A DNA stretch of 64,000 nucleotides from Aequorivita echinoideorum (lineage in GTDB: Bacteria; Bacteroidota; Bacteroidia; Flavobacteriales; Flavobacteriaceae). Below are positions 3,105 through 49,942 of this stretch, piece after piece (the first letter of the stretch is position 1; each line of letters starts with the position of its first letter). A program made the position numbers and the translations under genes. The notes under the pieces were generated by a model. The model saw only the letters and a program-made list of their open reading frames with translations. It did no database searches and was not told the DNA's origin. The DNA lies in contig NZ_JAHCTB010000001.1 in assembly GCF_018476645.1 (NCBI RefSeq), positions 682,001 through 746,000 of the forward strand, in the 5' to 3' direction.

Positions 3105-4685
3105 ATGGCAGAAGTAAAACCAGCTGAAGTATCAGCAATATTAAAGCAACAACTTACAGGCTTTGAAGCATCTGCTTCCCTGGATGAAGTAGGAACTGTA
3201 CTTACCGTAGGTGACGGGATTGCCCGTGTTTACGGCCTCTCAAACGCGCAATACGGTGAATTGGTTGCCTTTGAAAGCGGTCTGGAAGGTATTGTACTTA
3301 ACCTTGAAGAGGATAATGTAGGTATTGTACTTTTAGGCCCATCAAAAGGGATTAAAGAAGGTTCTACAGTTAAACGTACGCAACGTATTGCTTCACTTAA
3401 AGTTGGTGAAGGTATTGTGGGGCGCGTAGTAAATACATTAGGTCAGCCAATTGACGGTAAAGGACCTATTACCGGCGAAACTTACGAAATGCCCCTAGAG
3501 CGTAAAGCTCCTGGAGTTATCTACCGTCAGCCGGTAACTGAGCCGCTTCAAACTGGAATTAAGTCAATCGATGCGATGATTCCCGTAGGCCGTGGACAGC
3601 GTGAGCTTGTAATTGGTGACCGTCAAACAGGTAAATCTACCGTTTGTATCGATACCATTTTGAACCAAAAAGAATTTTACGACGCAGGTCAACCTGTGTA
3701 TTGTATCTATGTGGCGGTTGGGCAAAAAGCCTCAACGGTTGCAAACATTGCTCAAGTTCTTGAGGATAAAGGTGCTATGGCATACACTACTATTGTAGCG
3801 GCAAATGCATCAGATCCTGCGCCTATGCAGGTATATGCTCCATTTGCAGGTGCTGCAATCGGGGAATATTTCCGTGATACGGGCCGTCCAGCATTGATTA
3901 TTTATGATGATCTTTCAAAACAAGCGGTAGCATACCGTGAGGTGTCTCTTTTGCTTCGTCGTCCACCGGGACGTGAGGCGTATCCTGGAGACGTTTTCTT
4001 CCTTCACTCAAGATTGCTGGAGCGTGCCGCAAAGGTAATTGCTGATGATAATATTGCGAAGGAGATGAACGACCTTCCGGAAAACCTAAAACCAATAGTT
4101 AAAGGTGGAGGTTCGTTGACTGCCCTTCCTATTATTGAAACACAGGCAGGTGACGTTTCGGCGTATATTCCTACAAACGTAATTTCCATTACGGACGGAC
4201 AGATTTTCTTGGATGGGGATTTGTTCAACGCGGGTGTTCGTCCAGCTATCAACGTAGGTATTTCGGTATCGCGTGTGGGTGGTAACGCGCAGATTAAGTC
4301 AATGAAAAAAGTAGCGGGTACCTTGAAACTGGATCAGGCAGCTTTCCGTGAACTGGAAGCATTTGCAAAATTCGGTTCAGATTTGGATGCCGCAACATTA
4401 AATGTTATTGAAAAAGGAAAGCGTAACGTTGAAATCCTTAAGCAGGCGCAGAATGATCCATATACCGTGGAAGACCAAATTGCGGTTATCTATGCAGGTT
4501 CAAAAAATTTGATGCGTAACGTTCCTGTTGAAAAAATCAAGGAATTTGAAAGAGATTATCTTGAAATGCTTAACCTAAAGCACAGAGATACGTTGAACGA
4601 TTTAAAGGCCGGTAAACTAACGGACGACGCAATAGATGTATTGACGCAAACGGCAAACGAGCTTTCAGCGAAATATAAAAAGTAG
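3105..4685 (+). CDS. atpA: F1Fo ATP synthase subunit alpha
   Basis: Alpha carries the non-catalytic nucleotide sites and supplies the arginine finger to the catalytic beta subunit. The 526-residue protein shows the beta-barrel N-domain, the Walker A motif GDRQTGKS at residues 171-178 with Lys177, and the arginine finger Arg390 in ISVSRVGG. The C-terminal helical domain ends ELSAKYKK. Identification is secure. It is separated from atpG by an insertion with inverted repeats, and no atpD (beta) lies nearby, so the F1 genes are split across the genome. Confidence 0.98.
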
Positions 4686-46304: not shown

Positions 46305-46538
46305 ATGGGAAAAGATAAAAAGGACCTAAAAGACCTAAAAGACAAAAAGGACAAAAAGGACAAAAAGGACAGAAAAGATAAAAGGAAAAAGGATAAAAAA
46401 ATTTTCAAAACTGAATGCTGCGAAAAGTATCTCAAAAAAGGAGAGCACAAACGTTGCAAACGCTGTCCTTGTTTTGATCTTCCAGAGGCAGAACGGAAAA
46501 AAAGAAAGGCCGCCCTTTTGGACGACCTTTTAGAGTAG
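46305..46538 (+). CDS. Small Lys-rich protein with a Cys cluster
   Basis: The first 32 residues are KDK-type repeats encoded by nine-base units (GAC AAA AAG). The C-terminal 45 residues look folded: FKTECCEKYLKKGEHKRCKRCPCF holds five cysteines (CC, C, C, C) and a His that could bind a metal. Because the Cys-rich part is not explained by the repeat, I read this as a real gene, three bases behind the HDAC-like gene. No known domain is recognised. Zinc or iron binding is an inference. Confidence 0.55.
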   Translation: MGKDKKDLKDLKDKKDKKDKKDRKDKRKKDKKIFKTECCEKYLKKGEHKRCKRCPCFDLPEAERKKRKAALLDDLLE

Positions 46539-46539
46539 G

Positions 46540-47643
46540 TTATTTACCCGAGGCAAATATTTCCTTTAACTGCTTCACCATACCTCCGTTTCCGGAAACT
46601 GTGATTTCGCCAATTTTGTCGGCGATGGTTTCAACAAATTCCATTTCCTTAAGCTTGTAAAGCATTTCGTTTTCTTCCATCAATTTGGCGGTGTTCAACA
46701 AGCTTCTGGTTGAAGCTGTTTCTTCACGCCTAGTGATTACGTTGGCTTGCGCTTTCTTTTGCGCCACCAATACTTGGTTCATAATATCCTTCATTTCACC
46801 GGTCAAAATTACATCACGGATACCGCAGTTCAATACCGCTACACCCAACTTAGCCGCGGCTGTCTTTGTGTCTTCAAACACAGCTTTCGCAATTTGCGCT
46901 TTGTTTTCCAAAAGCTCATCAAGTGTATATGTTCCCACGTACGCACGCAGCGCGAGCTGCAACGCAACGTACAATTGCTTTTCAAAATCCTTGTTTTCCA
47001 ACAACGCTTTCTCAATATCTATTACTTTGTACTGCGTGTCAAAGTTGATACGGATTGCAGCTTTGTCTTTGGTCAACAATTCCTGTCCGGCAACCTCAAA
47101 TTGCAATTGACGCAAATCTACCTTTGCGATTTTAATGGTTGTGTCATTTCTCCAGAAACGGTATGTACCGCTTTCCAAAGTTTTTACATACACATCGTCC
47201 ACAATGAATACCGCTTTTTCAAAAGCCGCCACCTCAAAAACCCTGATGTATTTGCTTAATTCAACATTGCTGAAAAGCGCTTTATCAATTTTTTCGGTGA
47301 TGTAGATTTTGCTCAAATCCGCAGTTGTGAATTCATACTCCATCAAACCTTTCCAAAAAGCGTAGCGTCCGGATTTCAAAACTTGGCTAAAGCGTCCATT
47401 TTTGTAAACCAAAACCAATTCGTTATCCTTCACTTCAATGATGTGAAGCATTGCTTTCAATTTTTCATCTTTCAGCAAAATTTCCAATTCCTTGGGTGCG
47501 TTAAAGGCTGCCGCCATGCTATATTGCAGCACCGTTTTGCCAAAACCCAACCAGTGGATACCTTGGGTGATTACGCCTTGGTAATCGCCCCTTTTAAAAA
47601 CCAAACCTACATTTCCCGCGTTGATTCTTACTCTTTTCATCAT
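46540..47643 (-). CDS. Slipin/SPFH-domain protein with N-terminal repeats, no membrane helix
   Basis: The C-terminal part (about residues 170-340) is an SPFH/band-7 domain (LLTKDKAAIRINFDTQYKVIDIEKALLENK, then AQANVITRREETASTRSLLNTAKLMEEN) in the slipin group. The N-terminal 150 residues hold three related units (VGLVFKRGDYQGVI, LVLVYKNGRFSQVLKSGRYAFW, AVFIVDDVYVKTLESGTYRFW). Unlike classical slipins there is no N-terminal membrane helix. The gene is alone and convergent with the HDAC-like pair. SPFH proteins scaffold membranes or protease complexes; the partner here is unknown. Confidence 0.75.
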   Translation of the reverse strand: MMKRVRINAGNVGLVFKRGDYQGVITQGIHWLGFGKTVLQYSMAAAFNAPKELEILLKDEKLKAMLHIIEVKDNELVLVYKNGRFSQVLKSGRYAFWKGLMEYEFTTADLSKIYITEKIDKALFSNVELSKYIRVFEVAAFEKAVFIVDDVYVKTLESGTYRFWRNDTTIKIAKVDLRQLQFEVAGQELLTKDKAAIRINFDTQYKVIDIEKALLENKDFEKQLYVALQLALRAYVGTYTLDELLENKAQIAKAVFEDTKTAAAKLGVAVLNCGIRDVILTGEMKDIMNQVLVAQKKAQANVITRREETASTRSLLNTAKLMEENEMLYKLKEMEFVETIADKIGEITVSGNGGMVKQLKEIFASGK

Positions 47644-48088: not shown

Positions 48089-48244
48089 AAAGTACTTTTT
48101 GGACTGTTTTTATTTCCGAAGAAATAGCAACCGATTTTCCATTTACTCTTTTCATCACAATTTTTACAGCGTGACAGGCTGTTGGTCTGTTTTTAAAAGT
48201 TGACCTTCTTTGTTGAATGGTGGATTTTTAATCCTTTTCATAGA

Positions 48245-48287
48245 TGCTAGAACCTAAATCTAGTGCGTTTACCATTTCGCCATCCGC
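48245..48287 (-). pseudogene. 5' half of a tRNA-Leu(UAG)
   Basis: Reading the minus strand from 48287: acceptor and D region GCGGATGGCGAAATGGTAAA, then anticodon stem CTAGA/TCTAG around the loop TTTAGGT, anticodon TAG. No T-arm or closing acceptor strand follows in the next 100 bases, so the gene is cut after the anticodon arm. Confidence 0.6.
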
Positions 48288-48291
48288 CAAA

Positions 48292-48573: not shown

Positions 48574-48646
48574 CAGTACCGATGGGACTCGAACCCATAC
48601 CTTCCCCATAGACAGTGGGGCGCTCTAGCCTTTGAACTACGGTACT
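48574..48646 (-). tRNA. tRNA-Asp(GTC), unusual acceptor stem
   Basis: All four arms fold: acceptor AGTACCG/CGGTACT, D-stem GTTC/GAGC, anticodon stem CCCCA/TGGGG around CTGTCTA (anticodon GTC), T-stem ATGGG/CCCAT with loop TTCGAGT. The discriminator is G, as needed for Asp. The first pair is A-T instead of the usual G-C and CCA is not encoded. It lies next to three broken tRNA pieces on the same strand. Confidence 0.8.
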
Positions 48647-48672: not shown

Positions 48673-49206
48673 TTATTTTTTCTCCTTTCTTTTAGTTTTA
48701 CTTTTTTTCTTTGCCTTCCTTTTTTTCGGAAGCTTTTTCTTTATTCGTTCAATTTCGTTTTCCGCGAAAGTGATAAAATGATTGTTCAGCCCCAATTTTA
48801 GTCCGCACTTGTATGCTTTCAACGCTTTTTTGTTGCGCTTTTGAGCTTCAAAAAGTTGACCTTGCAAAAGGTTTAATAATGCTTTGTCTGCACCTTTTAA
48901 TAGTAATGCGTAATCCAAAACTTTTTGTGCTTCGTCAAAATCCTCGTTACGTATCAACGTGTAAACGTAATCTGGATAAATTCTTGGAAGCTCCATTTTG
49001 CTGGCAACCGCGGCTTCAAAATAATGCTTGGCAGCTTCAAAATCGTTTAGTTGATCAGCTTGTAAATTCGCCATTAAGCAAAGTGCCTGTACATTTTTTT
49101 CGTCATAAGACAAAGCGTAGTTTAAGGCTTCAATCGCTTCTTCCAAAGCAAAAGGATATGCGTCCAGCGCCTTGAACAAATAAATATTTTGTGTATTTGT
49201 GTCCAT
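48673..49206 (-). CDS. TPR-repeat protein with strongly basic tail
   Basis: From the ATG at 49206 (177 residues) the protein contains three to four tetratricopeptide units (ALEEAIEALNYALSYDEKN, ALCLMANLQADQLNDFEAAKHYFEAAV, ALLNLLQGQLFEAQKRNKKALKAY). It ends in a Lys/Arg tail of about 25 residues (KKLPKKRKAKKKSKTK), which could bind nucleic acid or ribosomes. Extra in-frame codons up to 49284 look non-coding. Function unknown; TPRs mediate protein contacts. Confidence 0.75.
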   Translation of the reverse strand: MDTNTQNIYLFKALDAYPFALEEAIEALNYALSYDEKNVQALCLMANLQADQLNDFEAAKHYFEAAVASKMELPRIYPDYVYTLIRNEDFDEAQKVLDYALLLKGADKALLNLLQGQLFEAQKRNKKALKAYKCGLKLGLNNHFITFAENEIERIKKKLPKKRKAKKKSKTKRKEKK

Positions 49207-49298
49207 TACAGTTTTGTTATTACTAGTTTTATCAGAATTGATTCTGAATTCATTTTTCCACTGTAACGGAGAGGGATACGTCAAAAATTGACATAAAA

Positions 49299-49330
49299 AA
49301 ATCCGAAACAGTTTTGTTTGCTTCGGATTT
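49299..49330 (-). terminator. Terminator of the 26-codon ORF
   Basis: A nine-pair stem (AAATCCGAA with TTCGGATTT) is followed on the minus strand by a run of T. It lies 20 bases after the stop codon of the tiny ORF at 49350-49430 and is a standard intrinsic terminator for it. Confidence 0.8.
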
Positions 49331-49349: not shown

Positions 49350-49430
49350 CTAACTATAATAGTTCCGAAGCTGGTTCTCTGGCGAATCATCTATCCAGTT
49401 TTGTCCTTTTGTGATCGTTAGGTAAAACAT
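49350..49430 (-). CDS. Tiny ORF, 26 codons, own promoter and terminator
   Basis: The minus strand encodes a 26-residue peptide, MFYLTITKGQNW followed by IDDSPENQLRNYYS, with 1 Cys-free, mixed-charge composition and no membrane helix. About 60 bases upstream lies a promoter-like pair (TTG at 49525-49527, AATATTTG at 49497-49504). The leader has a short inverted pair GCAGTT/AACTGC (49464-49469 and 49487-49492). A strong terminator follows. Such a compact unit is either a small-protein gene or a small RNA with a short ORF. I do not recognise the peptide. Translation is unproven. Confidence 0.5.
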   Translation of the reverse strand: MFYLTITKGQNWIDDSPENQLRNYYS

Positions 49431-49496: not shown

Positions 49497-49527
49497 CAAA
49501 TATTAAATGCATTTTTGAATTACACAA
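49497..49527 (-). promoter_or_regulatory. Promoter-like pair before the 26-codon ORF
   Basis: TTG (49525-49527) and AATATTTG (49497-49504, one mismatch to TAnnTTTG) are 20 bases apart on the minus strand. The start of transcription would fall near 49490, leaving a leader of about 60 bases. Confidence 0.4.
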
Positions 49528-49712
49528 ATAAAATTTTAATTTATTTCGTTGAAAATTAAATAGTTATATTGAATTTAGGGTGAAGAATTCCTGTTCGGTT
49601 TTTCACGAACTTTGGAATAATCTGCAACGTACTGTCTATCATTTGCTTATTACTCAACTGCTATTTTGGCTTAGATACTTTTCAAATACAATTAATTTTT
49701 AAAAAAAATCCA

Positions 49713-49743
49713 TAAAAAAAGGCGCCCGATGTATCGAGCGCCT
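49713..49743 (-). terminator. Strong terminator of the 36-codon ORF
   Basis: AGGCGC, then a mismatch-tolerant CGAT, pairs with ATCG and GCGCCT (11 positions, one G-T), followed on the minus strand by seven T. It stands 31 bases after the ORF stop. It is the most stable intrinsic terminator in the gene-poor stretch. Confidence 0.85.
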
Positions 49744-49774: not shown

Positions 49775-49885
49775 TCAAAAATAATTACATAACGCTCCGT
49801 ATCGTAAAAATGGATCAACCATTTTGCGATATTCAGACTGAAAAATTAGTCCTTTGGGTGTATTATGTAAACTTATGCTTTTCAT
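49775..49885 (-). CDS. Tiny ORF, 36 codons, near-leaderless, own terminator
   Basis: The minus strand encodes 36 residues beginning MKSISLHNTPKGLIFQ and ending FLRYGALCNYF, a basic, aromatic peptide with one Cys and no clear membrane segment. A -7-like box CATATTTG (49893-49900) and a TTG (49922-49924) place the start of transcription within a few bases of the ATG, so the mRNA would be nearly leaderless. A strong terminator follows. It starts 57 bases after the recQ stop and could also be read through from recQ. I do not recognise it with certainty; the balanced codon use argues for real coding. Confidence 0.55.
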   Translation of the reverse strand: MKSISLHNTPKGLIFQSEYRKMVDPFLRYGALCNYF

Positions 49886-49892
49886 TATGGTG

Positions 49893-49924
49893 CAAATATG
49901 CGGTAAATTTTGGCTAATTACCAA
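49893..49924 (-). promoter_or_regulatory. Promoter-like pair before the 36-codon ORF
   Basis: TTG (49922-49924) and CATATTTG (49893-49900, one mismatch to TAnnTTTG) are 21 bases apart on the minus strand, within the range known for Bacteroidota. Transcription would begin at about 49886-49889, almost at the ATG. Confidence 0.4.
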
Positions 49925-49942
49925 ATGATTAGTGAATGGATT

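Follow-up and report, generated by a model that had tools for sequence, protein, structure and literature searches.

Organization of the locus

The locus lies on the minus strand of a 64,000-nucleotide stretch of Aequorivita echinoideorum DNA, which we refer to as the window. Two short units, each with a promoter, a leader ORF, and a terminator, flank a middle element and are followed by a gene for a TPR-like protein and by tRNA sequences. In the order in which they would be transcribed, the features are:

49893..49925 (-), predicted promoter of unit 1; TTTG at 49925-49922 (-33) and CATATTTG at 49900-49893 (-7), read by eye
49775..49885 (-), leader ORF of unit 1; 36 codons, M-x5-H...
49857..49871 (-), seg1 of unit 1, UUUACAUAAUACACC; contains the conserved ACAUA and the CAT of codon 7
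49791..49797 (-), seg2 of unit 1, GAGCGUU, the putative antiterminator strand; identified by complementarity to the terminator 5' arm and by co-variation
49714..49743 (-), terminator of unit 1; seg3 at 49743-49734, seg4 at 49729-49720, T run to 49714
49585..49657 (-), middle element between the units, diverged in the window; hairpin GUUCG..CGAAC, from alignments
49497..49504 (-), -7 box of the unit 2 promoter, AATATTTG; read from the sequence and conserved in the alignment
49350..49430 (-), leader ORF of unit 2; 26 codons, MFYLTITKGQNWIDDSPENQLRNYYS
49364..49371 (-), seg2 of unit 2, GCUUCGGA
49295..49330 (-), terminator of unit 2, AAAUCCGAAGCA...UGUUUCGGAUUU, with T run
48673..49206 (-), gene for a TPR-like protein between unit 2 and the tRNAs; start at MDTNTQ (the ORF list starts it at 49284)
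48574..48646 (-), remaining array tRNA-Asp(GTC); 64% identical to the dispersed tRNA-Asp of the genome
48217..48289 (-), degenerate tRNA, a remnant of the array; 29.7 bits against a cut-off of 29

The frame of unit 1 runs for 36 codons from an ATG at 49885-49883 to a stop codon ending at 49775, and the ORF listing extends it to an upstream TTG (49924-49775, minus strand). We predict a Bacteroidota-type promoter, for which excerpts of a published study give the -7 consensus TAnnTTTG (PMC9723704), with transcription starting a few nucleotides before the ATG; the same or nearly the same -7 box abuts the ATG in relatives. This promoter type lies outside the coverage of the sigma-70 promoter scan. 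The stop codon (+111) and the terminator arm (+142) are separated by 31 nucleotides. Our analysis confirmed that this ORF, which lies on the minus strand, has the promoter abutting its ATG and the terminator beyond its stop that the original prediction described, and it supported the view of a separate transcription unit with a near-leaderless ORF missed by gene callers. The terminator scan alone was not significant (1 found against 0.5 +/- 0.8 expected in 1 kb), and the unit 1 RNA folded better than shuffled versions (z -3.1; 2 of 200 shuffles were equally good). We regard unit 1 as beyond chance because relatives have the same set of elements, from the promoter box and ATG through the open frame to the terminator.

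TPR matches of the protein encoded at 48673-49206 fall below the Pfam cut-offs. This TPR-like protein has a Lys-rich tail and accompanies the cassette at other loci as well, where its gene is placed either ahead of unit 1 or in the interval from unit 2 to the tRNAs. Around 48150-48290 on the minus strand, apparent further tRNA pieces (a T-arm and a tRNA-Leu-like 5' half) were noticed by eye and seem to be remnants of a longer array. The array of the window has shrunk to the one tRNA-Asp and the degenerate copy. At 46305-46538 on the plus strand, a low-complexity ORF starts MGKDKKDLKDLKDKKDKKDKKDRKDK, and its opposite strand reads FLSFLSFLS.

Distribution of unit 1 and the middle element

The locus is patchy in the genus. 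A search with the peptide missed unit 1 in most genomes and found full-length open relatives in just 3 of the 27 other genus genomes (G003, G041, and G020). The unit is kept in Flavobacteriaceae, though not chiefly as a protein. A covariance model of the 5' part matched at least 27 of 397 family genomes, nine candidates having been scored per genome, and one of these matches is the truncated unit of a congener (G017). At E <= 0.1, matches occurred in 64 of the 397 genomes, and the fetched loci were read one by one. Loci with a promoter box, ORF, and terminator were kept, the terminator being waived for G241, in which it is broken, and for truncated G017; L069, L071, and L074-L080 were discarded as chance matches. 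Throughout the kept relatives, the -7 box ends in TTTG or a near variant (TTAG in G020 and TTTA in G017) and abuts the ATG, and, except in G017 and G241, a T-run terminator follows about 165-190 nucleotides on.

Three congeners depart from this layout. Unit 1 and the middle element are on separate contigs in G020, G003 has other sequence ahead of its -7 box, and in G017 unit 1 is cut short and runs into the remnant of a slipin gene. By eye, the first half of unit 1 in G017 (L004/L051) adjoins the 3' terminus of a slipin-like gene that sits further on in the window, at 46540-47643; this is the layout that would result if the remaining cassette had been deleted along with the TPR gene and tRNAs. 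One genome with a unit 1 locus (L113) contains a second, weak copy (L108, G163:C21; 36.9 bits), with no tRNA called in the fetched stretch and no middle element nearby. The window genome has no second copy of unit 1 (next match E 0.14), and we rejected a multi-copy repeat as its identity.

The middle element is well conserved (GACAG..TTG....TATCCGU..ACGGACAGG; the copy in L164 is at 3687-3733). The inner pair of its hairpin is TA in 45, CG in 7, AT in 3, and AG in 1 of 56 copies, and a TTGATTATCAA-like palindrome follows. No clear promoter or terminator of its own was seen by eye. Its pattern matched 57 times among 84,980 species genomes, and 56 of the matches are Flavobacteriaceae-like. They fall in Flavobacterium, Kordia, Aquimarina, Tenacibaculum, Winogradskyella, Psychroserpens, Lacinutrix, and other Flavobacteriaceae, and in MAGs labelled Flavobacteriaceae, Weeksellaceae, or Bacteroidia. 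We took the match in a Lachnospiraceae MAG (L163) as chance and left it out of the leader-arm fit, tRNA identity, arm-pairing control, and 51-locus count described below. Within a sample of the order, the pattern occurred in 4 of 50 family genomes and in 0 of 246 genomes of other families. These counts are lower bounds, the diverged copy of the window itself being missed. A phage origin was rejected after the pattern gave 0 matches in viral contigs, as was a plasmid gene, tblastn of the peptide in plasmids yielding 2 records, both Roseomonas, at E 3.

For comparative analysis, unit 1 was parsed from 78 loci (21 G loci and 57 found by the pattern) with a rule that asks for the promoter and ATG...ACATA. 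A unit 1 was obtained from 65 loci; the 13 that failed the rule, several of which visibly have one, are L121, L122, L123, L136, L144, L150, L151, L152, L155, L159, L160, L163, and L168. Two units with a wrong start (L147 and L171) and one in which the rule gave no terminator (G020) were then excluded, leaving 62 units, 59 of them distinct. The automatic assignment of seg2 is doubtful in 4 of the 59 (L125, L131, L156, and L169).

The leader frame is kept open through seg2

Frame 0 is open through seg2 in 58 of the 59 distinct units, and each of the other frames is open in 1 of 59. In the one exception, L125, the frame ends after 17 codons, and without the 4 units of doubtful seg2, frame 0 is open in 55 of 55 and the others in 1 and 0. 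Since the G loci were first found via a protein profile or a model derived from it, they may favour open frames. Among the 39 units found by the middle-element pattern, which is blind to the ORF, frame 0 is open in 38 and the other frames in 0 and 1. Kinship among the sequences was handled in part, by clustering: with one representative per 75%-identity cluster, frame 0 is open in 24 of 24 and the others in 1 and 1. Frame +1 is a weak control because the sequence ATGA closes it at once in most units; when the TGA of ATGA is ignored, frame 0 is open in 55, frame +1 in 4 of 55, and the third frame in 0. These counts support selection for translation. The stop codon of unit 1 lies 22-44 nucleotides ahead of the terminator arm in 58 of 59 units.

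The start of seg2 falls in all three registers relative to the frame (25, 22, and 12 of the 59 units), so that the amino acids encoded by seg2 vary from species to species. All of the 54 distinct units counted have CAT as codon 7. This His codon is partly selected, and its frame is not, because the parsing rule asks for ACATA 11-17 nucleotides after the ATG in any frame; in G197, where the spacing is three bases shorter, CAT is still in frame. Translation through seg2 thus seems to be kept by selection, and the peptide itself does not.

Co-variation and mutually exclusive pairing in the unit 1 RNA

Across 49 distinct sequences, 80.7% of 1241 cells in the whole structure are paired, and 125 cells are changed on both sides compared with 42.0 in shuffled and 24-54 in slid versions; this alignment was fitted to the covariance model and leans towards structure. 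The 16-sequence alignment used for model building has 82.8% of cells paired and 30 cells changed on both sides compared with 14.4. Two of five co-variation measures were unremarkable in the small alignments: the number of pairs changed on both sides was matched by 63 of 500 shuffles and the pair types by 197 of 500 in the 16-sequence alignment, and the figures for seg2:seg3 were 40 of 500 and 340 of 500. Two hairpins within the ORF, P2 and P3 (helices 4 and 6), co-vary, with two-sided changes at every pair (5 of 5 and 6 of 6).

The segment seg2, GAGCGUU in the window and GGACGUU in most relatives, is complementary to seg3, the 5' arm of the terminator. Among the 16 sequences, 97.3% of 112 seg2:seg3 cells are paired compared with 24-51% in slid versions, and 9 cells are changed on both sides compared with 2.8 in shuffles. 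The two strands interchange together as GGACG/CGUCC, GAGCG/CGCUC, GGGCG/CGCCC, and AGACG/CGUCU. Within single units, the seg2 match frequently did not stand out from shuffled sequence (p <= 0.05 in 30 of 59). The seg2:seg3 pairing and the terminator are mutually exclusive.

We calculated pairing probabilities for nascent and full-length RNAs of 56 of the 59 units. In the ribosome-free nascent RNA, before the 3' arm has emerged, the median probability of seg2:seg3 is 0.94. The full-length RNA prefers the terminator, with a median probability of seg3:seg4 of 0.95 with and 0.94 without seg1 masked, and any switch must therefore be kinetic. The nascent 5' arms of units 1 and 2 pair upstream more than those of control hairpins do (0.73 and 0.61 against a median of 0.44; p 0.0009 and 0.02), the control being a small set of 24 other terminator-like hairpins from the same loci. 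Helix 1, seg1:seg2, is weak (74.4% paired; median probability 0.006), and the model given below has a default antiterminator in place of a trp-type switch.

A second unit repeats the logic of the first

Unit 2 lies about 400 nucleotides downstream of unit 1 and follows the same logic, with its own promoter, ORF, internal seg2, and terminator. We parsed 64 units 2 from 76 loci. No promoter was matched in 7 loci (G127, L121, L123, L124, L135, L140, and L163) and no terminator in 5 (G359, L117, L147, L151, and L153), in most of which the sequence ends early. The ORF spans seg2 in 63 of the 64 units, and its stop codon lies 16-27 nucleotides ahead of the terminator arm.

The terminators of unit 2 vary by lineage, with UCCGAAGC, GCACCUU, GCAUCUC, GACGCC, and GGCGCC types, and seg2 follows suit. 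When leaders were matched to terminator arms in 67 units, the fit to the own arm was 10.9 compared with 8.1 for foreign arms, and 0 of 2000 permutations were as good; 62 of the 67 units score above their foreign-arm mean.

The units precede a second set of tRNA genes

Same-strand tRNA genes lie downstream in 49 of the 51 pattern-found loci that have more than 600 nucleotides of downstream sequence; L117, L147, L148, L151, and L153 were excluded from this count for their short downstream sequence. Two loci, L125 and L156, have long downstream sequence and the TPR gene, and no tRNA was called in them. For the 49 loci with a called tRNA and a hairpin, we measured the distance from the terminator to the first tRNA. 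It is less than 100 nucleotides past the T run of unit 2 in 38, and in 36 of these 38 it is 13-39 nucleotides. No -7 box was present in these gaps, and TAnnTTTG was found in the 70 nucleotides before the tRNA in 0 of 38. With such small gaps, the array tRNAs can hardly be made except via read-through of the unit 2 terminator. Genes lying directly downstream with no promoter of their own are thus found in 38 of the 49 loci and not in the TPR arrangement, which is that of the window; there the gap from terminator to tRNA is 666-741 nucleotides in the four loci measured, with room for other promoters.

The 49 loci, several of which are incompletely covered by the stored sequence, carry 454 array tRNAs, 1 to 20 per locus. 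We compared them with the dispersed tRNAs of Kordia algicida OT-1 and of the window genome. The median identity of the 446 comparable array tRNAs is 67%, and 0 of the 446 reach >=85%, whereas the dispersed tRNAs of the window genome and K. algicida OT-1 share 94.5% identity with each other (median of 36, with a minimum of 77%). In K. algicida OT-1 (G393, L164), 18 tRNAs were called in the region and 42 elsewhere; of the 18, 4 precede the cassette, 13 follow it, and 1 lies roughly 7 kb further along. Fifteen of the 18 share an anticodon with a dispersed tRNA, at an identity of 59-74%. The array tRNAs are a second set, supernumerary to the dispersed housekeeping tRNAs. Upstream of unit 1, two Kordia loci (L148 and L154) carry a short cluster of tRNAs, one of which is called as a selenocysteine tRNA.

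A candidate translation-failure switch

We propose, with a probability of roughly 75%, that a redundant tRNA array is controlled in cis by two leader-ORF transcription attenuators in tandem, unit 1 being the first. This proposal draws directly on the anatomy of unit 1, its conservation, the co-variation of seg2 with seg3, and its place before tRNA arrays. As we model the switch, a ribosome reading the leader ORF to its stop codon would break the seg2 pairing, so that the terminator forms and transcription stops. If translation does not initiate, or if the ribosome stalls ahead of seg2, seg2 would capture the emerging 5' arm of the terminator, and the polymerase would continue into the divergent tRNA genes. 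The simplest model has the antiterminator as the default state, which translation must break, because seg2:seg3 is favoured in the nascent, ribosome-free RNA and seg1:seg2 is weak. Such a switch would need no special codon, which fits the weak conservation of the peptide. Overall, the two units would act as a general sensor of translation failure that turns on a backup set of tRNAs. With the array of the window reduced to a single tRNA and a remnant, the switch there may be vestigial and do nothing now, or it may mainly serve the TPR gene.

Alternative explanations

Unit 1 could instead be a small RNA that stands on its own, has a structured body, and acts in trans, its place before tRNA arrays being mere synteny. 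Such an RNA would have its own promoter and terminator and co-varying hairpins, as unit 1 does (P2 and P3, in 49 distinct sequences), and might be found apart from the rest of the cassette, as in G020 and, once, with no middle element or tRNA nearby (L108); conserved flavobacterial small RNAs exist, Rfp18 being an example in excerpts of a published account (PMC9723704). However, a small RNA of this kind leaves unexplained a frame kept open through seg2 across shifting registers, the repetition of the same logic in unit 2, and tRNAs that begin 13-39 nucleotides past the unit 2 terminator. We consider it unlikely; a leader that is one of two in tandem before a tRNA array is a better reading than either a free-standing small RNA or the dual-function small RNA envisaged in the original prediction.

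That the ORF is a functional small-protein gene, the other identity offered at the outset, appears quite improbable, even with its conserved ATG and open frame. Its peptide was examined over the first 63 nucleotides of 54 distinct units, with G197 and L125 also left out of this and the cluster test. Substitutions in frame 0 are more conservative than in all-column shuffles (0 of 300 and 2 of 300 reach the observed value), but 16 of 300 and 11 of 300 within-codon shuffles match the peptide score, so that the protein-level signal over the first 21 codons is weak. M1 and H7 are the only residues constant throughout the 54 N-terminal parts, the second half is read in differing frames between species, and the peptide has no match in Pfam or NCBIfam.

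A ligand- or tRNA-binding riboswitch with an incidental ORF, which the junction-like fold with conserved bases and the mutually exclusive antiterminator and terminator might suggest, is most improbable, given that, apart from tRNA, neither the window nor 18 loci (17 from relatives) yielded any Rfam family at its gathering score and that an incidental ORF would not remain open in one frame only. The best sub-threshold Rfam match, rteR, scores 29.7 bits against a cut-off of 72, rests largely on the terminator, and was rejected. 6S-Flavo RNA (RF01685) was rejected as well, the genome having its match elsewhere (G000:C22), with none at the locus.

Relation to known systems and implications

In trp-type leader-peptide attenuators, a short ORF overlaps mutually exclusive antiterminator and terminator pairings. 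The flavobacterial units share this overlap. They differ in that their leaders have no run of codons for one amino acid, their seg1:seg2 pairing is weak, unit 1 is nearly leaderless, two units with their own promoters stand in tandem, and the downstream genes are tRNAs. As a sensor of translation stress, the role that we propose for these units, a short ORF has a counterpart in toiL, the uORF of E. coli topAI-yjhQ, which senses several translation stresses according to excerpts of its description (PMC12121999). The target of toiL is a protein gene, whose translation and Rho-dependent termination it affects, whereas the flavobacterial units have intrinsic terminators and tRNA genes.

The array itself resembles the L-array (trn operon) of Anabaena sp. 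PCC 7120 in being a redundant multi-tRNA operon beside housekeeping tRNAs. As described in parts of the source, the L-array is repressed by default and activated under translational stress, and a DNA-binding repressor, TrcR, silences it at the -10 box (PMC10272220); the main text of that article contains no word beginning with attenuat, leader, or terminator. Whereas Anabaena uses the TrcR repressor, the flavobacterial array has two putative leader-ORF attenuators in front of it. The Rfp RNAs of Flavobacterium psychrophilum, compared here by parts of their published description, are conserved, structured, short transcripts from the same bacterial family and could include one of these units. 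One of them, Rfp18, is reported to be needed for normal levels of metalloprotease mRNAs, to which it is predicted to pair (PMC9723704, as excerpted).

In the literature searched, which comprised sources other than subscription papers, preprints, and supplements, attenuators before tRNA arrays were not described, and such arrays were not reported in Flavobacteriaceae. Both tRNA arrays and leader-ORF sensors are known kinds of element; that literature yielded no case of the two combined, with leader-ORF attenuators in tandem ahead of divergent tRNAs.

A bolder proposal, which we put forward tentatively and which may well prove wrong, is that Flavobacteriaceae hold a shadow set of tRNAs under a double translation-failure switch. 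The set would be off while ribosomes finish both leader ORFs and on when housekeeping tRNAs are destroyed or uncharged or when ribosomes are blocked, and the divergent tRNAs would then restore translation. Differing in about one-third of their bases, the array tRNAs could evade the nuclease or toxin behind the attack.

Scattered bacteria are known to carry redundant tRNA arrays, whose activation, in the literature searched, has been worked out only for Anabaena. Two translated attenuators would explain both the silence of an array and its switching on by translation failure with no regulator protein. An apparent missed small protein may be a translated sensor whose peptide hardly matters. The arrangement offers a testable model for a whole bacterial family, and tRNA genes would become a further kind of target for leader-ORF attenuation.
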